64,000 bases of DNA from Thalassospira sp. (GTDB lineage Bacteria > Pseudomonadota > Alphaproteobacteria > Rhodospirillales > Thalassospiraceae). The notes under the pieces were generated by a model, which searched no databases, had not been told where the DNA came from, and saw only the letters and a list, made by a program, of their open reading frames with translations. The position numbers and the translations under genes are program-made. Shown piece by piece: positions 9,075 through 56,342 of the stretch. Numbering within the stretch: position 1 is the stretch's first letter; each line of letters opens with the position of its first letter. The stretch covers positions 124,001-188,000 of the forward strand of contig NZ_JAUYHK010000022.1 in assembly GCF_030690045.1 (NCBI RefSeq). The letters run 5' to 3'.

Positions 9075-10247
9075 TTACGATGTGAGGGCAGCCGCCGCCG
9101 CGTCAATCGCCGCCAGCGCCTCGTCCACATGGGTTTTGGTGATGTTCAGTGGCGGTATGATCCGCACCACATTATCGCCTGCCGGAACTGTCAAAAGGTT
9201 CAGTTCGCGCAATTTGGCAACCACATCGCTATTGGTCGGCACGGTTTTGATGCCCATCAACAGGCCCATGCCCCGGATTTCCGCAATAAATCCCGGATGC
9301 TTGCGGCCAATCGCCTCAAGGCCGGTGCGCAGAAACTGGCTCATGGCAAGGACATTCTCCATCAGGTCGGGCTTCAGAACTTCGTCAAGCACCGCATTGG
9401 CTGCGCGCGTGGCAAGCTGATTCCCCCCGAATGTCGTACCGTGCATCCCCGGTGAAAAGGCACTTGCCGCCTTTTCATTGGCCAGCAATGCCCCGATCGG
9501 GAAACCGCCGCCAAGACCCTTGGCCGATGAAATGATATCGGGTTCCATATCCGACCATTGATAGGCAAAAAGTTTGCCTGTCCGGCCGATCCCGGTCTGT
9601 ATTTCATCAAACATCACCAAAAGGCCATATTCGTCGGCCGCCTTGCGAAGCCCTTCAAGATATCCCTCGGGGGCCTTGCAAATCCCGCCTTCACCCTGAA
9701 TCGGTTCAACAAGAATACCGGCGGTCTCGGGTGTAATCGCATCGCGCAATTCGTTCAGATTGCCAAAGGCCACCCGGTCAAACCCGTCGGGCATCGGGCC
9801 GAAACCCTCGCGGTATTTTTCGCTGTAACCGGCGGTCAGCGTGCCCAGCGTTCTGCCATGAAACGCATTGGTCGCCACCAGAATGCGGTTCTTTTCCCGG
9901 TTGCCCGCGACATACTGATACCGGCGCATCATCTTGATGCCCGCTTCGTTGGCTTCCGCCCCGGAATTGCAGAAAAACACCGTATCGGCAAAAGTGTTTG
10001 CCACCAGCCGTTCCGCCAGTTTTTGCTGGCCGGGCATCTGATACAGGTTTGACGTATGCCAAAGCTTCGCCACCTGATCGGTCAGTTCCCGAACCAGATG
10101 CGGGTGCGAATGCCCAAGGCAATTCACCGCAATACCGGACCCGAAATCAAGGAATCGTCGGCCGTCCAGCGCATAGAGATAAGGTCCTTCGCCTCTCTCA
10201 AAGGCCAGATCGGCCCGCGCATAGGTCGGCATGACGGCTGTGATCAC
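9075..10247 (-). CDS. argD: Acetylornithine/succinyldiaminopimelate aminotransferase
   Basis: Encodes 390 residues of a class III PLP aminotransferase. It makes N-acetylornithine for arginine synthesis and often serves the lysine pathway too. The cofactor region is visible as [13 protein letters not shown], and the Schiff-base Lys lies in [15 protein letters not shown] choose the GTG at 10247 as start because GAGGAA sits 7 bases before it, giving [13 protein letters not shown], the usual family N-terminus. An ATG at 10232 is the alternative. The leader contains a short hairpin (CTGACC at 10283-10288 with GGTCAG at 10293-10298). argF follows directly. Confidence 0.95.
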
Positions 10248-45296: not shown

Positions 45297-45310
45297 TTGA
45301 TCAATATCAA
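45297..45310 (+). promoter_or_regulatory. FNR/DNR-type operator of the nos operon
   Basis: TTGATCAATATCAA is a perfect TTGAT-N4-ATCAA box, the target of FNR, Anr, DNR and NnrR regulators. It lies just upstream of the first gene of the nos operon, consistent with induction under low oxygen or by nitric oxide. A class II activator bound here would place the start point near 45345. Confidence 0.85.
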
Positions 45311-45317
45311 TCGCAAC

Positions 45318-45734
45318 ATGCTACGGCAGGCGCATGGTGCGGCCATGTGTAAAAACAGGCTTCGCCCCCTTTTCTCGATTCTAATCGCCTTGTCGCTGAT
45401 CGGCGGCAATATGGCGGCGGGAAAAGTGCAGGCATCCGGCCTGCATGGTTCAGCGCCCCTTACCGAAATCATCATCTGCACGGCCAATGGCGAACCGGCA
45501 AAAATCCTTGTCGATGCGCAAGGAGTTCTCAGCGACCCGCAACAAGACTGCGGCTGTCCGCTTTGCCCTGATTGTTTGCAAACCGGCACATTTTATCTGA
45601 CCCCGGCTGATGTTGTGCTTTGGCGCAAGCAACCTGTCTTTAGCCCTGCCCGTACCGGACAGACCGATCTTGTAAGCCAGCGTCATTTCTCGCTGGCAAG
45701 CGCCCGTGCGCCACCGTTCCCGCAAAAGGCCTGA
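45318..45734 (+). CDS. Small exported Cys-rich protein, DUF2946-like
   Basis: About 138 residues from ATG 45318, or 129 from ATG 45345. A signal peptide (KNRLRPLFSILIALSLIGG) is followed by a soluble domain with IICTANGEPAKILVDAQG and the cluster CGCPLCPDC, like the DUF2946 group, often found next to copper-related genes. Such a Cys pattern suggests metal binding, perhaps copper handling for NosZ, in the periplasm; this is an inference. It ends four bases before nosR, so it is the first gene of the nos operon. If transcription starts near 45345 as the FNR box suggests, translation from 45345 would be almost leaderless. Confidence 0.68.
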   Translation: MLRQAHGAAMCKNRLRPLFSILIALSLIGGNMAAGKVQASGLHGSAPLTEIIICTANGEPAKILVDAQGVLSDPQQDCGCPLCPDCLQTGTFYLTPADVVLWRKQPVFSPARTGQTDLVSQRHFSLASARAPPFPQKA

Positions 45735-45738
45735 CACC

Positions 45739-47985
45739 ATGACGCCCCCGTATATCTGCGCGCCCAAAATTTCTGACATAATCCCGCTCAGGGATTTTCT
45801 CCGGCCCTTTCTGGCAGCATTGCTTTTCATGCTGCTGCCCTTGGCCGCATCGGCGCAAACACAGCCCCATCTTTCCCGTTTTCTGACTGAAATGCCTGCC
45901 GCGTCCTTGGTGGCGGGCGCGGACAGCTATGGCCCGATCAGCAAGGATGTCCCGGTTGCCCCTGTGTTGCGGGATGGTGAGACCATCGGCTGGGCCTTTA
46001 TCACCTCTGATTTTGTCGGCACCACCGGTTATTCCGGCAAACCGATCCATGTCATGATGGCGGTTGATGCCGATGCCAAAATCATTGGCGTCAAACTGGT
46101 CAAGCATTCCGAACCGATTGTCCTGATCGGCATTCCCGACGCCAAAATCGCCGCCCTGACCGAAGGCTATGTCGGGTTTGACCTGATAACAGCGGTGGAT
46201 GGTTCAAGCCACGAACTGAACATCATTTCCGGCGCGACCGTCACCATCATGGTGATTGACGATTCGATCATCCGGTCCGGCCTGCGGGTGGCCCGCGCCC
46301 TTGGCCTTGGCGGGTTATCTGTGGCACAGGCCGCCACAGGTCCGACCTTTGACATCAACCCCGATGCCAAGGCGGCGTCGGACTGGCTGACACTGGTCGG
46401 GGACGGAACCATCCGGCGCATGTCGCTGGATATCGGACAGGTCAACAACGCCTTTGCCGCCATGGCCGACCCCCGCGCCGCCGAACGGCCCATTGACGGC
46501 ACACCCGATGATAATTTTATCGACATGTATGCCACCCTTGTCAGCATCCCGGCAATTGGCGAGGCCGTGCTGGGTGATCGCGGCAATGCCAATCTGCGCA
46601 CATGGCTGAAAGACGGCGAACACGCCATTCTGGTGGCCGGACGCGGACAATATTCCTTCAAGGGATCAGGCTATGTGCGCGGCGGGCTGTTTGACCGCAT
46701 CCAGCTTATTCAGGGCGACATGTCGGTACGGTTCCGCGACCGCAACCACCGCCGGGTCGGGGATATCTTCGCCGATGGTGTGCCCGAACTGTCCGAAATG
46801 GATCTGTTCAAAATTCCCGCCGATGCCGGTTTTGATCCAACCGAACCGTGGCGGTTACAGCTTTTGGTTCAGCGTGATGTCGGTGCCATCGAACGGGTTT
46901 ACACCACCTTTGACATGGGGTGGCAGGCCCCGGCGCAATATCTGCGCCAGATGGCCCCGGCACCCTCCCTTGCCCCGGTTACTGCCGAAATTGATAGCGA
47001 TGAACAGGCCGCCAAAACCGCCCTGTGGCAACGCATCTGGCGTGACAAGACGCTGGAAATCGCCGGTCTTGCCATCATGCTGGCCGTCCTGACCGCCGCC
47101 TTTTTCTTTCAGGGTTTTCTGACACGTTCCGCCGCCGTCACCTTCTGGTTCCGGATTGGCTATCTGTCGGTCACGCTGGTTTTTCTGGGCTGGTACGCCA
47201 ATGCGCAACTCTCTGTCGTCAATCTGATGGCACTGGGCAGTTCGTTGATCTCCGGCTTCACCTGGGAAGCCTTCCTGCTGGACCCGCTGACCTTCATCCT
47301 GTGGTTTGCGATTGCGGCTGCCCTGATTTTCTGGGGACGCGGAGCCTATTGTGGCTGGCTGTGCCCGTTTGGTGCCCTTCAGGAACTGACCAACCGCATC
47401 GCCAAATTTTTCCGCGTGCCGCAATGGACCCTGCCCTGGGGTCTTCATGAACGCTTGTGGGCGGTGAAATACATCATCTTTTTGGGTCTGCTCGGCACCA
47501 TGCTGGCCTCGGTCGATCAGGCCGAAAAACTGGCCGAGGTCGAACCCTTCAAAACCGCCATTGTCCTGAAATTCGACCGCGCCTGGCCCTTTGTCCTCTA
47601 TGCGCTGGTGTTGCTGGGCATCGGGCTGTTCGTCGAACGGTTTTTCTGCCGATATCTCTGCCCGCTGGGCGCTGCACTGGCGATTCCGGCGCGCATCCGG
47701 ATGTTTGACTGGCTCAAACGATACCGGGAATGCGGCAGCCCCTGCCAGACCTGTGCCCACGAATGCATGGTGCAGGCCATCCACCCAACAGGAGAAATCA
47801 ACCCCAACGAGTGTCTCTACTGCCTTCATTGTCAGGTGCTGTATCAATCCGAACACAAATGCCCGGTCGTCATCAAAAAGCTCAAACGGCAGGAAAATCT
47901 CCTGGCCGGTTCCAAAGGCGCAACAGAAGCGCTGGAGCGGTTCATGACCAAAAATCCCAATCCCAAGGAGAATAGAAATGTCTGA
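45739..47985 (+). CDS. nosR: NosR, membrane flavoprotein/Fe-S protein for N2O reduction
   Basis: Encodes 748 residues. A signal segment leads to a periplasmic FMN-binding domain with the flavinylation motif ISGATVT (about residue 172). Several membrane helices follow, with the cysteine motifs CGWLCPFGA and CRYLCPLGA. The C-terminus holds ferredoxin-like clusters ([12 protein letters not shown] and CLYCLHC). NosR feeds electrons to NosZ and is needed for its expression. ATG 45739 follows AAAGG at 9 bases. It overlaps nosZ by eight bases. NosX, encoded last in the operon, supplies the FMN. Confidence 0.95.
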
Positions 47986-49930
47986 CACGACACCCAAATC
48001 CGGCATCAGTCGCCGCGATCTTCTCAGTGCTGCGGCAAGCGGGGCTGCCCTCGTCGGCGCGGCCGGTGCGACCCGCATGGCAATGGTTGGCGGTGCAACC
48101 GGTGTTGCAACCCTTGCCGCCACCAGCGGCGCAAATGCCGCAACCACCACCGCCAATGCGCATCTCGCACCGGGCGAACTGGATGAATATTACGGTTTCT
48201 GGTCGTCGGGCCAATGTGGCGAAATGCGCATTCTGGGCATCCCGTCGATGCGCGAACTGATGCGCGTTCCGGTATTTAACCGCTGTTCGGCAACCGGTTG
48301 GGGGCAAACCAACGAAAGCCTCAAGATTCTGACCGAAAACATGTCGGACAGAACCCGGAACTTTCTGGCCGCCAATGGCAAAAAAGTGCATGATAATGGC
48401 GACCTTCACCATGTCCATATGTCCTTTACCGAAGGCAAATATGACGGTCGTTTTCTGTTCATGAACGACAAGGCCAACACCCGTGTTGCCCGTATCCGTC
48501 TTGACGTCATGAAGCCCGACAAGATCCTTGAAATTCCGAATGCCAAGGCCATTCACGGCCTGCGTCCACAAAAATGGCCGCGCACCAATTACGTCTTTGC
48601 CAATGGCGAAGACGAAGGGCCGATGATCAATGACGGCAAAATCCTGGATGATCCGTCGCAATATGTGAATTTCTATACCGCCATTGATGCCGACGAAATG
48701 CAGGTCGCATGGCAGGTAATGGTCTCGGGCAATCTTGACAACACCGATGCCGATTACGACGGCAAATACGCCTTTTCGACCAGCTACAATTCCGAAATGG
48801 GCATGAATATTGCCGAAATGACCGCGTCCGAACTGGACCATGTTGTGGTCTTTAACATCGCGGAAATCGAAAAAGGCATTGCGGCGGGTGATTTCATCGA
48901 ACTGAACGGTGTAAAAGTGATTGATGGCCGCAAAGGCCAGAACAAAAACTATACCCGTTATATTCCGATCCCCAACAGCCCGCATGGCTGCAACATGGCC
49001 CCGGACAAGAAACATCTGTGCATCAGCGGCAAACTGTCACCAACCGTTTCGGTGATTGATGTCACCAAACTCGATGCGGTGTTCTATGATGGTGCCGAAC
49101 CGCGTTCGGTCGTGGTTGCCGAACCGGAACTGGGGCTTGGTCCGCTACACACTGCCTTTGACGGGCAGGGCAACGCCTTTACCACCCTGTTCCTCGACAG
49201 TCAGGTGGTGAAATGGAATATCGACAAGGCGGTTCGCGCCTATGCCGGTGAAAATGTCGATCCGATCATTACCAAGGTCGATGTCCATTACCAGCCGGGT
49301 CACAATTCGACCTCGATGGGTGAAACCCTTGAAGCCGATGGCAAATGGTTCATTTCGATGAACAAGTTTTCCAAGGATCGCTTCCTCAATGTCGGGCCGC
49401 TGAAACCCGAAAACGAACAATTGTTCGCGCTTGAGGGCGACGAGATGATCCTGATGCATGACGGCCCGACCTTTGCCGAACCGCATGACTCGATCATCGT
49501 TCACCGCTCGCTGATCAATCCGCTGAATGCCTGGGACCGTCAGGACCCGATGTGGGCCGATACCCGCAAACAGGCCGAAGCAGACGGTGTGGATATCGAC
49601 GATTATGCCGATACGGTGATCCGGGATGGCAACAAGGTTCGGGTTTACATGACATCGCAGGCCCCGACTTTCAGCCTGGAATCCTTCACGGTAAAGGAAG
49701 GCGACGAAGTCACCGTGATTGTCACCAATCTTGATGACATCGATGATCTGACCCACGGCTTTACCATGGGCGATCATGGCGTTGCCTTCGAGGTCGCCCC
49801 GCAGGCCACCGCATCGGCAACCTTCGTTGCCGCCAAACCGGGTGTTTACTGGTATTACTGCCAGTGGTTCTGCCATGCGCTGCACATGGAAATGCGCGGC
49901 CGTATGCTCGTCGAACCCCGGAGCGCCTGA
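47978..49930 (+). CDS. nosZ: Nitrous oxide reductase NosZ (clade I, Tat-exported)
   Basis: Encodes 650 residues. The Tat signal SRRDLLSA identifies the clade I type. The seven-bladed propeller carries the CuZ histidines ([37 protein letters not shown]). The CuA site is C-x3-C-x3-H-x2-M near the C-terminus ([12 protein letters not shown], Cys about 628 and 632). It reduces N2O to N2 in the periplasm as the last step of denitrification. AAGGAG lies seven bases before the ATG. No nir or nor genes are in the window. Confidence 0.98.
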
Positions 49931-49933
49931 GCC

Positions 49934-51274
49934 ATGAAACGCCCCGTCCTTCTGCTTGTCGCCATGCTGATCCTGCCGCTGCATTTCGCCGTGGCCGGAC
50001 AACAATGGGTTCCGGCACAGGCCGGGGCGCTTGTAACTGCCATCGCCGGGGCCAATCCCGGCGATGTCCTGCTTCTGGCACCGGGCCGTCACGATGGCCC
50101 GGTGGTGCTGGACCGGGCCATCACCCTTGATGGCGGTGGTACGGCCATCCTTGATGGCGGCGAAACCGGCAGTGTCATTACCGTGACCGGCACCGATATC
50201 GTCATTCGCGGGCTGGAAATCACCGGATCGGGATCAGAACACGAAACCATCGATTCCGGGGTGCAGCTTTTGCGCAGTGCCGCCCGTATTGTGGTCGAAG
50301 ACAACCGTATTCTGGGCAATCTGTATGGCGTCGATATTCATGGTGCCACCGACAGCACGGTACGCAACAACACCATTGTCGGGCGCACCGGATACCGGGT
50401 CAATGCGCGGGGCAATGGTGTTTATGTCTGGAATGCGCCGGGTACACTGGTTGAAAACAACGATATCCGGCTGGGCCGCGACGGCATTTTCGTCAATACC
50501 TCGAACCGGGGCATTTTTCGCGGCAATCTGTTTCGCGATCTGCGTTTTGCCGTCCATTACATGTATGCCAACGATTCCGAGGTGTCGGGCAATATTTCCA
50601 TCGGCAATCATCTGGGATACGCCCTGATGTTTTCCAATCGCATCAAGGTGCGCGGCAATATGTCGCTGGCCGATCGCGATCAGGGATTGATGCTGAATTA
50701 CGCCAATAACGCCGATGTCAGCGACAATCTGGTGCGGGGCGCGGGCGGCAAATGCGCCTTTATCTACAACGCACATCGCAATCTGATCAATGGCAACCGG
50801 TTTGAAGGCTGCGCGATTGGCATTCATTTTACGGCCGGGTCCGAACGCAACGCCCTGACCGGCAATGCCTTTATCGGCAATCAGACACAGGTCAAATATG
50901 TCGGCACCCGCGACGTAGAATGGAGCTTTGATAACCGTGGCAATTTCTGGTCTGACCATCCGGCTTTTGATCTGGATGGCGATGGCATTGCCGATGGCCG
51001 CTTTCGTCCCAACGATCTGATGGACCATATCCTGTGGTCACAACCCGCCGCCGGTTTGCTGCTGGGCTCGCCCGCTGTGCAGCTGATCCGCTGGAGTCAG
51101 GCCCATTTCCCCGCCACCCTGCCCGGCGGGGTGCTGGACAGTTTTCCGCTGACCCGCGCCGTCGAAATCAAGGTTTCCAAAGAAATCACCGCCATGGAGG
51201 CCGAGGCCCGCGCCCGCCCCGCATGGTTGCATGAAAGGTTTGAAGATGTGTCTGACCCTCTCACAAGTCACTAA
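49934..51274 (+). CDS. nosD: NosD, periplasmic protein for CuZ maturation
   Basis: Encodes 446 residues. A signal peptide (LLLVAMLILPLHFAVAG) is followed by a right-handed beta-helix of NosD/CASH repeats (ILDGGETGSVITVTGTDIVIRGLEITGSG, LYGVDIHGATDSTVRNNTIVG, RVRGNMSLADRDQGLMLNYAN). With the NosF-NosY ABC transporter it delivers sulfur or assembly factors to the CuZ site. It starts three bases after the nosZ stop and overlaps nosF by 29 bases. Confidence 0.95.
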   Translation: MKRPVLLLVAMLILPLHFAVAGQQWVPAQAGALVTAIAGANPGDVLLLAPGRHDGPVVLDRAITLDGGGTAILDGGETGSVITVTGTDIVIRGLEITGSGSEHETIDSGVQLLRSAARIVVEDNRILGNLYGVDIHGATDSTVRNNTIVGRTGYRVNARGNGVYVWNAPGTLVENNDIRLGRDGIFVNTSNRGIFRGNLFRDLRFAVHYMYANDSEVSGNISIGNHLGYALMFSNRIKVRGNMSLADRDQGLMLNYANNADVSDNLVRGAGGKCAFIYNAHRNLINGNRFEGCAIGIHFTAGSERNALTGNAFIGNQTQVKYVGTRDVEWSFDNRGNFWSDHPAFDLDGDGIADGRFRPNDLMDHILWSQPAAGLLLGSPAVQLIRWSQAHFPATLPGGVLDSFPLTRAVEIKVSKEITAMEAEARARPAWLHERFEDVSDPLTSH

Positions 51275-52136
51275 GCTTTATGACGGCAGGACCGTGCTGG
51301 ATGATGTTGGTTTTGACGTTGCACCCGGCGAACGGGTCGCCCTGCTGGGCCATAATGGTGCGGGCAAATCAACATTGATGAAAATCATCCTTGGGCTGAT
51401 CACCGCTGATCAGGGCACGGTGTCGGTTCTGGGCGATGCACCCGGCAGCCATACGGCCCGCGCCGGAACCGCCTATCTGCCGGAAAATGCCGCCTTTCAC
51501 CCGGCCCTGACCGGGGAGGAGCAAATCCGGTATTACCTGCGCCTGCGCAGTCAGGACCCCGACCTTGCCCCGGCCTTGCTCGCACGGGTCGGACTGGCGG
51601 ATGCGGCAAAACGCCGGATCGGTACCTATTCCAAAGGGATGCGTCAGCGGGTCGGTCTGGCACAGGCATTGATCGGCAAGCCACGCCTGATGGTACTGGA
51701 CGAACCGACCAGCGGCCTTGACCCGGTATCGCGCCGCGAATTTTACGAGATTCTGGATGAACTGGCACTTGAGGGTGTCGCCATCCTGTTATCGTCCCAC
51801 GCCTTGACCGAGGTCGAAGCCCGCACGGATCGCATTGTTATCCTGTCGGGCGGCGTCATGGTTGCCAATGATACGCTGGGCAATTTGCGCCGTCGGGCTG
51901 CCTTGCCGATCCGCCTTCAGGTTTCCGCCCATCCCGGAAGTGCCGATCAGGTTGCCGACAAATTGTCCGGTGGCCGTCGCAATGGGGTGATGGTCGATCT
52001 GACCTGCGGTTATGACGACAAACTGGCCCGGCTGGGCGATATCGCTGCCCTTGGCGCGATGATTGACGATGTTGAAATCATCCCGCCCAGTCTTGAAGAT
52101 ATCTATAGCCATTTTAGCAAAGGGGCCGCGTCATGA
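51246..52136 (+). CDS. nosF: NosF, ATPase of the CuZ maturation ABC transporter
   Basis: Encodes 296 residues. Walker A is GHNGAGKSTLMK, the signature region is SKGMRQRVGLAQAL and Walker B is LMVLDEPTSGLDP. The start is taken at 51246, seven bases after AAAGG and inside the end of nosD, because the protein then begins MCLTLSQVTKLYDG like other NosF. It energises the NosY permease. It overlaps nosY by four bases (ATGA). Confidence 0.95.
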   Translation: MCLTLSQVTKLYDGRTVLDDVGFDVAPGERVALLGHNGAGKSTLMKIILGLITADQGTVSVLGDAPGSHTARAGTAYLPENAAFHPALTGEEQIRYYLRLRSQDPDLAPALLARVGLADAAKRRIGTYSKGMRQRVGLAQALIGKPRLMVLDEPTSGLDPVSRREFYEILDELALEGVAILLSSHALTEVEARTDRIVILSGGVMVANDTLGNLRRRAALPIRLQVSAHPGSADQVADKLSGGRRNGVMVDLTCGYDDKLARLGDIAALGAMIDDVEIIPPSLEDIYSHFSKGAAS

Positions 52137-52954
52137 CCCGTATTCTGGCATCCGGTCGCGCCGAATTCCTGATTGCGCTGCGCAATCGCTGGGTCACCAT
52201 TGCGGTGGTGATGATGGCGCTGTTTTCCATGGTTTTATCTGCCGCTGGCAGTGCTCCCACCGGGGCACTGGGGGCAGATAAACTGTCCGTCACGGTTGCC
52301 AGCCTGACATCCCTGGCAGTCTATCTGGTGCCGCTGGTCGCCCTTTTGATGTCGTTTGATGCCGTGGCGGGCGAAGTCGAACGCGGCACCTTGCCGCTGG
52401 TTCTGACCTATCCGGTATCGCGCGCCGAATTGTTGCTGGGCAAGTTTACCGCCCATCTCGCCATTCTCGCGCTTGCGGTCGCGGTCGGTTATGGCATCGC
52501 GGTGATCGCCGCCATGGTCATGGACCCGCGTGCGGCCCTTGGCATTCCGGCCCTTGTCCGGCTGTTCTGGACCTCGCTTTTGCTTGGTGCCACCTTTCTG
52601 GGCATCGGATATGCCATTTCCGCCTTTGCCCGCCGTCCCGGTGCTGCGGCCGGTCTGGTGATCGGGCTGTGGCTGGTGCTGATTGTGCTGTATGACCTTG
52701 GGCTTCTGGCGGCGATTGTCGCCGATGATGGCGGGGTTTTCACCACACAGGTTTTCCCGTGGCTGTTGCTGGGCAATCCGGCGGATGCCTTTCGTCTGTA
52801 TAATCTTGCCGCGTCCGAGGCCACAGCCGCCGCCGCAGGCATTGCCGGGGCCGCCAACAGCATCCCGCAAATCCATGCCCTTGCCTCGATCATGCTATGG
52901 CCGATTGCCGCTTTCGGGCTTGCCCTGATGGCCTTTCGCAAGGTGACGCCATGA
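52133..52954 (+). CDS. nosY: NosY, permease of the CuZ maturation ABC transporter
   Basis: Encodes 273 residues with six membrane helices, in the usual NosY layout. The stretch LMSFDAVAGEVERGTLPLVLTYPVSRAELLLGKF is the family hallmark. It acts with NosF and NosD in the inner membrane. Four-base overlaps with nosF and nosL indicate tight coupling. Confidence 0.94.
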   Translation: MTRILASGRAEFLIALRNRWVTIAVVMMALFSMVLSAAGSAPTGALGADKLSVTVASLTSLAVYLVPLVALLMSFDAVAGEVERGTLPLVLTYPVSRAELLLGKFTAHLAILALAVAVGYGIAVIAAMVMDPRAALGIPALVRLFWTSLLLGATFLGIGYAISAFARRPGAAAGLVIGLWLVLIVLYDLGLLAAIVADDGGVFTTQVFPWLLLGNPADAFRLYNLAASEATAAAAGIAGAANSIPQIHALASIMLWPIAAFGLALMAFRKVTP

Positions 52955-53526
52955 CCAAAATCCTGCTGGTTGCCATCACGCTTTTGACCCTGACCGCCTG
53001 TCGCGAGGACGAGGCCGCAAACCTGCCCGCCCCTGTCGCCATGACCGCCGAGGCCGTCGGCCATTACTGCCAGATGAACATCCTTGAACATCCCGGCCCC
53101 AAGGCACAAATCCATCTGGATGGCATGCCCCATCCGCTGTTTTTCAGTCAGGTCCGCGATGCGGTTGCCTATCAACGCATGCCCGAACAAAGCCACGCCA
53201 TCCGTGTGATCTATGTCAGCGACATGTCACAGGTGACAGACTGGAACGTGATCGGCGCAGATAATTGGATTCCCGCCATATCGGCGCATTATGTCGTCGG
53301 TTCAAACCGGGTCGGTGGCATGGGGGCGGCCGAACTTGTGCCATTTTCAAACCCCGATGATGCCGCGCGTTTTGCCAAACTTCATGGCGGGCAGGTCATG
53401 ACGCTGGATGACATCGCCGATGTCGCCGTGCTGTCGCCGGTCGCCATCAACCCGGTCGCCATCAGCGAAGATGACGATGATTACCGTAACCGCCTCAAAC
53501 AACTCCGTCAGGAGGGCGAAAATTAA
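52951..53526 (+). CDS. nosL: NosL, copper-binding lipoprotein
   Basis: Encodes 191 residues. The lipobox LTAC (Cys about residue 16) predicts an anchored periplasmic lipoprotein. The copper(I) site region is GHYCQMNILEHPGPKAQIHLDG, with the Cys and Met expected of NosL, and the C-terminal half carries ELVPFSNPDDAARFAKLHGGQVMTLDDI. It delivers copper to NosZ. The protein ends in an acidic, then basic tail. ATG 52951 overlaps the nosY stop (ATGA). Confidence 0.95.
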   Translation: MTKILLVAITLLTLTACREDEAANLPAPVAMTAEAVGHYCQMNILEHPGPKAQIHLDGMPHPLFFSQVRDAVAYQRMPEQSHAIRVIYVSDMSQVTDWNVIGADNWIPAISAHYVVGSNRVGGMGAAELVPFSNPDDAARFAKLHGGQVMTLDDIADVAVLSPVAINPVAISEDDDDYRNRLKQLRQEGEN

Positions 53527-53527
53527 A

Positions 53528-54463
53528 ATGACCCAAGTGTCACGACGCCGTTTTTTAATGATTTCCGCCGCCACGGCGACCCTTGCCGGTTTGCCCGGCA
53601 TCGCCCGTGCCGCCCTTCCGGTCACTCATTGGCGCGGGGTGGCGATGGGGTCTGCGGCCTCAATCAGCCTTGCCCATCCCAATGCCGATGCAATCATCCA
53701 GCGCGCCCTTGCTGAAATCGCCCGGCTGGAAAACATCTTCAGTCTCTATCGACCCAATTCAACCCTGATGCAGCTTAATGCACATGGCCGGATCGACGCA
53801 CCACCATTTGATCTGCTTGAATGTCTGGGCCTGTGCAATGCCGTACATACCGCCAGCAACGGCCTGTTCGATCCAACGATCCAACCCCTGTGGCAGCTTT
53901 ATGCCCGACACCATGCCAACGGGCAGGCTCCGCATCCCGACGCCATCAAAACCACCCTGTCGCAAACCGGCTGGAACGGGGTGGGGTATGATCAGAATGG
54001 TGTGCAGTTTGACCGCCCCGGCATGGCCATCACCCTGAACGGGGTGGCGCAAGGTTATGTTGCAGACCGCGTTGCGGCCCTGTTGCAGGCCGAAGGCCTG
54101 ACCGACATTCTGGTCAATACCGGCGAATTTCACGCCCTTGGCGGGCATCCCGATGGCGGTGACTGGCCGGTGTCGATTGATACCGGATCAAGCATTCTGA
54201 CCGATGCTGTCCCCTTGCGCGACCGCGCACTGGCAACATCATCCCCCCGCGGCACAGTGTTTGATGCGCAAGGCAAAGTCGGCCATATCCTTGACCCGCG
54301 CAATGGCGCAGCGGGTAAAAGTCCGTGGCAAAGCATCAGTGTTTCCGCACCCGATGCCGCCCTTGCCGATGCGCTCAGCACTGCCATGTGCCTGATGACC
54401 CGCCCGGAAATCACCGCCCTGCTGGCAGCGTTTCCCAAGGCGCGGCTGGTGCATCTCGCCTGA
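53528..54463 (+). CDS. nosX: NosX, ApbE-family FMN transferase
   Basis: Encodes 311 residues. A Tat signal (SRRRFLMISAATATLAG) is followed by the ApbE fold (RLENIFSLYRPNSTLMQLN, GLFDPTIQPLW, ITLNGVAQGYVADRVA, ILVNTGEFHALG, and HILDPRNG...SVSAPDAALADALSTAM). It attaches FMN covalently to NosR through its SGATVT motif. It ends the nos operon; dadA converges with a gap of four bases, and I see no terminator between them. Confidence 0.93.
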   Translation: MTQVSRRRFLMISAATATLAGLPGIARAALPVTHWRGVAMGSAASISLAHPNADAIIQRALAEIARLENIFSLYRPNSTLMQLNAHGRIDAPPFDLLECLGLCNAVHTASNGLFDPTIQPLWQLYARHHANGQAPHPDAIKTTLSQTGWNGVGYDQNGVQFDRPGMAITLNGVAQGYVADRVAALLQAEGLTDILVNTGEFHALGGHPDGGDWPVSIDTGSSILTDAVPLRDRALATSSPRGTVFDAQGKVGHILDPRNGAAGKSPWQSISVSAPDAALADALSTAMCLMTRPEITALLAAFPKARLVHLA

Positions 54464-55825: not shown

Positions 55826-55839
55826 TTGATCAATTTCAA
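55826..55839. promoter_or_regulatory. FNR-like 14-mer between dadA and the Lrp-type gene
   Basis: TTGATCAATTTCAA differs in one base from the FNR box of the nos operon. It lies in a 156-bp divergent region that is AT-rich, as Lrp targets are, so it may be part of an Lrp-binding region instead of a true FNR site. Confidence 0.4.
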
Positions 55840-55880: not shown

Positions 55881-56342
55881 ATGTCCCGCCTTGACGCGAT
55901 TGACCGCAATATCATCCGGGCGCTGCGCCTCAATGCCCGAATCAGCAACACCAAACTGGCCGCCGATGTCGGTCTGTCACCATCGGCCTGCCTTCGGCGC
56001 ATCAATTTGCTGGAACAGGAAGGGGTTATTCGCGGCTATACCGCCCTTGTCGGCAATGCCGAGGATCAAAACACCATTTCCGTGATCATCAACATCACGC
56101 TGGAACGCCAGACCGAGGAGCATCTCAACCGGTTTGAAGCCGCCATCCGCAAACATCCCGAAATTCAGGAATGTTACCTGATGACCGGCGGATCGGATTA
56201 TCTGTTGCGGGTTGTGGTCGAAAATGGCGGCGATTTTGAACGTATCCACAAGGAAATCCTTGCCAAACTGCCCGGCGTATCACGCATCCATTCCAGCTTT
56301 TCGATCCGTAATGTGCTGGTATCACGGGCCGTCCGGAAATAG
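55881..56342 (+). CDS. Lrp/AsnC family transcriptional regulator
   Basis: Encodes 153 residues. The N-terminal helix-turn-helix (NTKLAADVGLSPSACLRRINLLEQEGVIRGY) and the RAM ligand domain (QECYLMTGGSDYLLRVVVENGGDFERI) are standard. It is divergent from dadA and likely controls it in response to an amino acid, as DadR or Lrp does. It converges with truA, eight bases apart. Confidence 0.92.
   Translation: MSRLDAIDRNIIRALRLNARISNTKLAADVGLSPSACLRRINLLEQEGVIRGYTALVGNAEDQNTISVIINITLERQTEEHLNRFEAAIRKHPEIQECYLMTGGSDYLLRVVVENGGDFERIHKEILAKLPGVSRIHSSFSIRNVLVSRAVRK

Follow-up and report, generated by a model that had tools for sequence, protein, structure and literature searches.

The nos operon in the 64,000-nucleotide stretch of Thalassospira sp. 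DNA analyzed here (the window) is led by an open reading frame whose 129-aa product carries a Cys cluster and, near its C terminus, the arrest motif RAPP. We propose that this upstream ORF (uORF) is a cis-acting, copper-responsive arrest peptide of the CruR/CutF kind, in which arrest would keep nosR off and copper would turn it on, a reading to which we assign a probability of about one half. That the uORF is a regulatory arrest peptide, whatever the direction of control, is very likely. Judged from its sequence, the uORF and nosC of Paracoccus denitrificans are genes of one kind. The C-terminal RAPP was missed in the initial annotation, and it changes the interpretation of the uORF.

The uORF between an FNR-type box and nosR

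The uORF is the first gene behind a perfect FNR-type box and lies directly ahead of nosRZDFYLX (Table 1), in what the gene spacing suggests is a single operon. The initial annotation had correctly reported the box, TTGATCAATATCAA at 45297-45310, the leading position of the uORF, and its distance of four bases to nosR: the stop codon TGA (45732-45734) is followed, after a 4-nt gap, by the nosR ATG at 45739. However, the start that it gave for the uORF, 45297, is a TTG within the FNR box and very unlikely as a gene start, the likely start being the ATG at 45345. FNR-like sites with at most one mismatch number 9 in the 64-kb window versus 3.3 expected (standard deviation, 1.7), and two of them are perfect, the other perfect box being located at 9247-9260. 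A copy with one mismatch, TTGATCAATTTCAA (55826-55839), is found shortly 5' of an ORF at 55881 that resembles, by eye, an Lrp-type regulator.

Table 1. Features of the uORF region and the nos genes in the window
Feature	Position	Strand	Remarks
FNR-type box	45297..45310	+	TTGATCAATATCAA; perfect; centre 45303.5
nosC/CruR-like uORF	45345..45734	+	129 aa; putative copper-responsive arrest type
Signal peptide, Sec type	45345..45434	+	MCKNRLRPLFSILIALSLIGGNMAAGKVQA; approximate, read by eye
Cys45	45477..45479	+	invariant in 9 aligned sequences
Cys cluster CGCPLCPDC	45549..45575	+	residues 69-77 (C69, C71, C74, C77); proposed Cu sensor
mRNA hairpin	45676..45697	+	GCCAGCG-TCATTTCT-CGCTGGC; coding, just 5' of arrest codons
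RAPP motif	45705..45716	+	residues 121-124; sequence motif, arrest predicted
nosR Shine-Dalgarno, candidate	45724..45729	+	AAAAGG; within last uORF codons
nosR	45739..47985	+	NF046105, 808 bits, E 5e-243; model cut-off 1000, under which every NosR of the class search scores, this one included
nosZ	47978..49930	+	Tat-dependent type; TIGR04244, curated NCBIfam cut-off passed
nosD	49934..51274	+	TIGR04247, curated NCBIfam cut-off passed
nosF	51246..52136	+	ABC ATPase by match, nosF by position
nosY	52133..52954	+	permease; weak permease matches, name by position
nosL	52951..53526	+	no family match, name by position; later ATG picked as start by eye
nosX	53528..54463	+	ApbE-like; ApbE model E 2e-16, below cut-off; start by eye

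At class II FNR promoters, transcription starts 41.5 nt from the box center. The ATG at 45345 is located at this very distance, on the predicted class II +1, and the uORF is probably translated leaderless. The initial annotation had hinted at this, and the hint is supported by the 51 homologues described below, 22 of which have an in-frame ATG 41.5 to 43.5 nt from the box center. These 22 include all 10 genus homologues as well as those of C. sphaeroides, R. capsulatus, and the two Paracoccus species. Ahead of 47 of the 51, an FNR-like box is present that deviates by no more than one base. With the genus counted once, the ATG falls at this position in 13 of 42 cases, nine of them at exactly 41.5 nt, and the other offsets in the histogram hold at most 4 each. 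Among the other 29 homologues, 23 have an in-frame start at about +61 to +74. We looked for a classical sigma-70 promoter and found none.

The product has a hydrophobic N-terminal stretch, the CGCPLCPDC cluster that the initial annotation had already pointed out, and the C terminus SARAPPFPQKA. Its layout is CPLC, 46 residues, RAPP, five residues, and stop, with C69, C71, C74, and C77 located 51, 49, 46, and 43 residues ahead of the Arg of RAPP. The DUF2946 likeness noted initially is real but weak, since the Pfam entry PF11162 matches the protein with an E value of 4e-4 and 21.5 bits and does not reach the gathering cut-off of 23.7; on its sequence, the protein is best called DUF2946-related. 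When eight homologues were scanned with this entry, one passed, five fell below the cut-off, and two (P. denitrificans NosC and L006) had no match at E ≤ 1. NCBIfam, PHROGs, and solved structures gave no match to the window protein, Rfam gave two matches near the region that were both far below the cut-offs, and a single-protein search of genome contigs found no relatives. Relatives were gathered by nosR-anchored retrieval.

Distribution, conservation, and junction with nosR

A gene-neighborhood survey, as suggested in the initial annotation, showed that the association with nos is conserved. It covered 151 nosR loci from 145 genomes, out of 220 distinct places obtained in NosR searches; the 69 places left out were partial or lower scoring (nearly all below 690 bits), and many of them are probably the NirI paralogue, although four loci at 662 to 694 bits (L110, L111, L112, and L154) were included. 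We found a homologous uORF at 47 loci and none at the other 104. By group, it was present in 10/15 loci of the genus, whose members are close relatives of one another, in 35/60 of family f25, in 2/3 of family f40, and in 0/73 of all others. We took f25 to be Rhodobacteraceae because L043, one of its members, has the very same uORF as Phaeobacter porticola (L190). L140, a wrong-frame match, was dropped from the list, and the nosR locus of G815 was checked and has no uORF. At L039 (reverse complement, 1025-1384), a short ORF whose signal peptide is similar but which has neither the Cys cluster nor RxPP ends beside the nosR start and may be a decayed nosC (profile E value of only 0.09).

Ten named plasmid records, picked from 206 with a match, were added, and the uORF was found in seven (P. 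denitrificans, P. pantotrophus, C. sphaeroides, R. capsulatus, R. pomeroyi, Phaeobacter porticola, and Roseinatronobacter) and was absent from Roseibium, Sinorhizobium BG8, and Azospirillum. The resulting table of 51 homologues comprises 44 surveyed and 7 named cases and 50 distinct proteins (L190 being the L043 protein); L133, L077, and L141 belong to the 47 surveyed uORFs but stand outside it. A profile built from the 51 recovered the 44 surveyed members as well as these three. An RxPP-like motif is kept in 46/47 surveyed uORFs, the exception being L133, which reads RGSP, and the motif of the 51 is RGPP in 35, RAPP in 13 (48 for the two together), and RDPP, HAPP, and QAPP in one each. Cysteines occur 43, 46, 49, and 52 residues ahead of the motif Arg in 33, 35, 33, and 21 of the 51, and 3 to 45 residues follow the motif. 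L029 and L035, from f40, have CPSCATAC-type cysteines, HAPP or QAPP, and an overlap with nosR, a divergent form that is possibly an independent recruitment. A CXXC-RxPP pattern matched 49/51 homologues but, within the first 150 loci, only 2 of 2,780 further ORFs, both of which proved to be additional nos-linked uORFs. The module does not appear to lead nirK as well: none of 18 nirK loci had a genuine case, and the lone match to the pattern reads through stop codons.

The uORF looks like a real gene under purifying selection, since dN/dS was 0.17 to 0.44 in the 9 computable pairs among 10 picked from the 45 within the genus. Across nine aligned sequences, only I44, C45, C77, R121, P123, and P124 are invariant. 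Within the 10 genus sequences, all variation in the RAPP codons is synonymous. Constraint is lowest in the last eight columns of the alignment (pN/pS of 0.72, versus 0.48 to 0.56 elsewhere), although RAPP itself is invariant. L015 is a natural variant in which the frame shifts directly after RAPP; the motif is retained, and the stop codon of the new frame overlaps the ATG of nosR. From these sequences, the residues 3' of RAPP appear free to vary.

A start codon in the nosR frame lies -10 to +4 nt from the uORF stop in 51/51 homologues under a nearest-start rule, which favors small gaps; RefSeq sets the nosR start farther on, with gaps of 56 nt in R. pomeroyi and 75 nt in Roseinatronobacter. 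In a compact class of 22, the distance from the first Pro codon to the nosR start is 21 to 38 nt (28 in the window), and in an extended class of 29, RxPP is located 80 to 140 nt ahead of nosR. The table of 51 thus shows that the sensor-to-arrest spacing and the tight nosR junction are kept but that the arrest-to-nosR distance is not.

As a control carrying the same bias, we examined 31 of 71 other DUF2946 places in the genus, mostly the best-scoring one per genome, of which one (L183) was unusable. Thirty of the 31 end in the CXXC-RAPP module, with RAPP followed by 3 to 5 residues, and the cysteines of the 30 usable paralogues stand at 49/46 in 28 and at 47/44 in 2. In all 30, the next long ORF starts no closer than 36 nt under the nearest-start rule. 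L001 and L002 are canonical DUF2946/RAPP ORFs elsewhere in the genome of the window, with next-gene gaps of 77 and 587 nt by that rule, and, judged by eye, the next ORF at L001 resembles PepSY_TM.

In a quick NosR tree (93 rows, SH-aLRT support), the 10 genus members with a uORF form one clade (99), whose neighbor is L054, a compact f25 member (98), and both sit inside a 44-row clade (99) made up mostly of f25. Because the genus clade nests there, the window operon probably arrived together with its leader ORF. The five genus members without the uORF (L007, L011, L012, L013, and L020) form a separate clade with a second, distinct nosR, and the genus therefore has two nos operon lineages. Presence of the uORF required 10 changes on the tree, versus 27.8 in shuffles, none of 500 being as low.

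The hairpin of Table 1 has a relative, in another register, in the nine genus relatives, where it spans 38 to 15 nt 5' of the first RAPP Pro codon and might fold again in the wake of an arrested ribosome; the hairpin of the window itself is register shifted. An earlier covariation count leaned partly on the window sequence, which is not in its best register. In a recount without that sequence, support was weaker but persisted, with 88.9% of cells paired, double changes in 4/8 pairs (25/500 shuffles were as high), and a covariation of 0.323 versus at most 0.087 when slid. The stretch from RGPP to nosR showed weak conservation of RNA structure in 17 extended sequences (z score of -2.5, -0.6 kcal/mol).

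Relation to CruR, CutF, and NosC

The accessible parts of the cited papers describe two copper-responsive systems placed in DUF2946. CruR (bp2923) of Bordetella pertussis senses copper via a CXXC and arrests at RAPP, and its arrest turns the downstream gene on (PMC9426467). The arrest was shown in vitro by toeprinting, which placed the first Pro in the P site, and RAPP and RGPP are the most versatile of the experimental arrest motifs (PMC12992588); by analogy, the P-site and A-site codons at the RAPP of the window are expected at 45711-45713 and 45714-45716. In Rhodobacter capsulatus, copper delays the export of CutF itself, which exposes the next ribosome-binding site (PMC9973294). Both proteins act as nascent chains in regulation and are described as being degraded rapidly (PMC9426467, PMC9973294), and they bear out the association of DUF2946 with copper that the initial annotation had stated.

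Like CruR, the window uORF is small, has a predicted export signal, is the first gene of a copper-tied operon, and has its CXXC at the expected distance of about 45 to 46 residues, kept to within 1 or 2 in uORFs of this type, from a near-terminal RAPP; the Pfam family is common to both, if weakly matched by the window protein. CruR, however, is separated by a 162-nt gap with Rho-dependent termination from the gene for a TonB-dependent transporter, whereas the window uORF has no long intergenic region before nosR, and arrest there would cover the next start, unlike that of CruR. With CutF, the uORF shares the predicted character of an exported nascent copper sensor with a C-terminal Pro-rich motif ahead of a copper-enzyme gene, and it has the hallmarks of CutF-like genes: a length below 150 aa, PP among the last 15 residues (123-124), a Cys cluster, and a signal, read by eye. 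In contrast, a stem-loop hides the ribosome-binding site of cutO and copper prolongs the arrest, and the window offers no intergenic room for a stem-loop hiding the nosR Shine-Dalgarno sequence.

Among CutF-like genes with a gap below 10 nt or an overlap, nearly 60% precede the gene for nitrous-oxide reductase or NosR, and a distinct cotranslational mechanism was suggested for these short-gap nos cases (PMC9973294), to which the window uORF belongs. In its accessible parts, that paper gives the proportion and the suggestion, without the geometry or a link to NosC, and its filters for length and for PP would drop P. denitrificans NosC, which has 169 aa and an RGPP 41 residues from the end. The nos link was therefore already in print; the identity with NosC, the geometry, and the proposed mechanism are added here. 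SecM, ApdA, and ApdP likewise combine a C-terminal RAGP or RAPP arrest core with cis control of the next gene, but they sense export or membrane insertion and not a metal (PMC12992588).

NosC of P. denitrificans (Pden_4221, in nosCRZDFYLX) resembles the window uORF in position, Cys cluster, 46-residue spacing, RxPP, and tight nosR junction; in strain HAMBI_2443, it reads CRDC-46-RGPP, and an FNR-like box lies 42.5 nt ahead of the ATG. The differences are RGPP in place of RAPP, a longer tail after the motif, and an ATGA overlap with nosR in place of the 4-nt gap. The window protein, as a homologous product encoded immediately ahead of nosR, is 26% identical to NosC of P. denitrificans and 23% to that of P. 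pantotrophus, with C45, C77, and R-x-P-P aligned. In the accessible parts of the literature, the function of NosC is called unknown (PMC8139620) or left unassigned (PMC5387054), and the protein is labeled putatively heme containing (PMC9409073), which an arrest-peptide reading of its CXXC would make a misannotation. Deletion of nosC reportedly deregulates the response of nosZ to copper (PMC5387054), and low copper is reported to raise nosCR transcription and to lower that of nosZ (PMC7660919). When copper is low, nosZ transcript is also reported to be more abundant in a nosR mutant, from which NosR was read as a repressor (PMC8951191, citing Sullivan 2013); all three statements go back to a 2013 study. 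The specificity for copper is uncertain, since nosC is also up 9.4-fold in Zn-depleted medium (PMC5387054). PMC6530538, PMC11102522, PMC5987163, and PMC12914433 contributed nothing decisive. Among the matches listed in a search that most subscription papers lay outside, no paper joined NosC to DUF2946, CruR, CutF, or arrest peptides.

Direction of control

The leading edge of a ribosome lies about 15 nt beyond its P site. With Pro123 in the P site, it would reach about 45726, against the candidate Shine-Dalgarno AAAAGG and 12 nt away from the nosR ATG; the AAGG of this element is kept in 9/9 genus relatives, where it falls entirely within the footprint of the arrested ribosome. Arrest and nosR initiation would therefore be mutually exclusive in the genus, and since the stop/start junction is the rule shared by all homologues, we propose that arrest means nosR off. 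At low oxygen, FNR would activate the promoter, and the transcript would begin at most about 2 nt from the ATG, giving a leaderless mRNA. The nascent chain would be targeted for export, with its Cys cluster 43 to 51 residues ahead of RAPP. In the absence of copper, the ribosome would stall once the first Pro of RAPP occupied the P site and, covering or abutting the Shine-Dalgarno sequence, would exclude initiation at nosR; with nosR untranslated, Rho polarity would also lower nosZ. Copper bound to the Cys cluster would relieve the arrest, as proposed for CruR, and the released ribosome would terminate just ahead of the nosR ATG, so that nosR would be translated by coupling and nosZ would follow. 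In the extended form, occlusion is impossible at a distance of 80 to 140 nt and coupling alone could act; as several of these 29 cases have a GGAGG-type Shine-Dalgarno sequence for nosR, independent initiation is possible there.

Several points count against this explanation. It reverses the direction of CruR for the same chemistry, PF11162 stays below its cut-off here and is absent for P. denitrificans NosC, and 104/151 nosR loci, those of five genus members included, have no uORF. The Zn response of nosC, the low constraint on the last eight alignment columns, and the failure to find a classical sigma-70 promoter weigh on the same side. The three copper observations in P. denitrificans can be explained by polarity in cis but also by the CruR direction, NosR then being a repressor; unless it is a cis effect, the rise of nosZ in the nosR mutant fits the latter, which is simpler. 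There, arrest at low copper would keep Rho off the message and nosR on, NosR would repress nosZ, and copper would turn nosR off. Such a sign has been characterized for CruR (PMC9426467) and agrees with the increase in nosCR transcription at low copper (PMC7660919) and with the nosR mutant (PMC8951191, citing Sullivan 2013). We nevertheless regard it as unlikely: where CruR has its 162-nt gap, the nos uORFs have a junction of -10 to +4 nt, a stalled ribosome would block nosR initiation in the compact form, and more NosR, which also serves NosZ, would be made just when NosZ cannot be built.

A copper-on sign, the physiologically sensible one for NosZ, would also result if copper strengthened the arrest and the stalled ribosome melted a hairpin over the nosR ribosome-binding site, the mode of R. 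capsulatus CutF (PMC9973294). This is improbable, as an intergenic hairpin has no room and PMC9973294 itself suggests another mechanism for the short-gap nos cases. Melting as a way to open the nosR start was rejected for the extended class (29 cases), where the mean predicted openness of the start region was 0.37 free and 0.36 with a parked ribosome; the rise from 0.46 to 0.67 in the 22 compact cases is largely an artifact of forcing the covered bases to be unpaired. The initial annotation had suggested that the uORF product might supply copper or balance redox state while NosZ matures. Such a periplasmic carrier of copper or redox factor in NosZ/NosR maturation, with RAPP incidental, would suit a Cys-rich, apparently exported protein encoded beside nosR at 47/151 loci, and a chaperone was the first conjecture for CutF, as stated in PMC9426467. 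Yet just six residues are invariant, those after RAPP are free to vary, and the gene is absent at most nosR loci; we consider such a role very improbable. The regulatory, rapidly degraded CruR and CutF relatives and the RAPP ending also speak against copper supply (PMC9426467, PMC9973294), as does the reported effect of the P. denitrificans counterpart on copper control of nosZ transcription (PMC5387054, PMC7660919). From that initial interpretation, we thus retain the link between DUF2946 and copper, the first-gene position, the association with nos, and the leaderless start, and abandon the supply or redox role, although the finished protein may have a second role too.

Arrest with nosR off, the reading that we prefer for the window, can be extended tentatively to NosC proteins at large, that of P. 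denitrificans included: they are possibly leaderless cotranslational copper sensors, in which an RxPP arrest relieved by copper, of the kind that holds a copper-uptake operon on when copper is low, would keep nosR off, since only a ribosome that finishes nosC would translate nosR. If so, the increase in nosCR and decrease in nosZ at low copper, as well as the effects of losing nosC or nosR, would be explained in cis, and NosR would be no repressor protein. As a CruR/CutF-type arrest peptide, NosC would make the copper control of nosZ testable by a few point mutations. One sensor module would have been wired in the opposite sense simply by shifting the next start codon. Denitrifiers release N2O under copper limitation, and the bacterial copper switch for N2O emission would then be a translation-arrest device.
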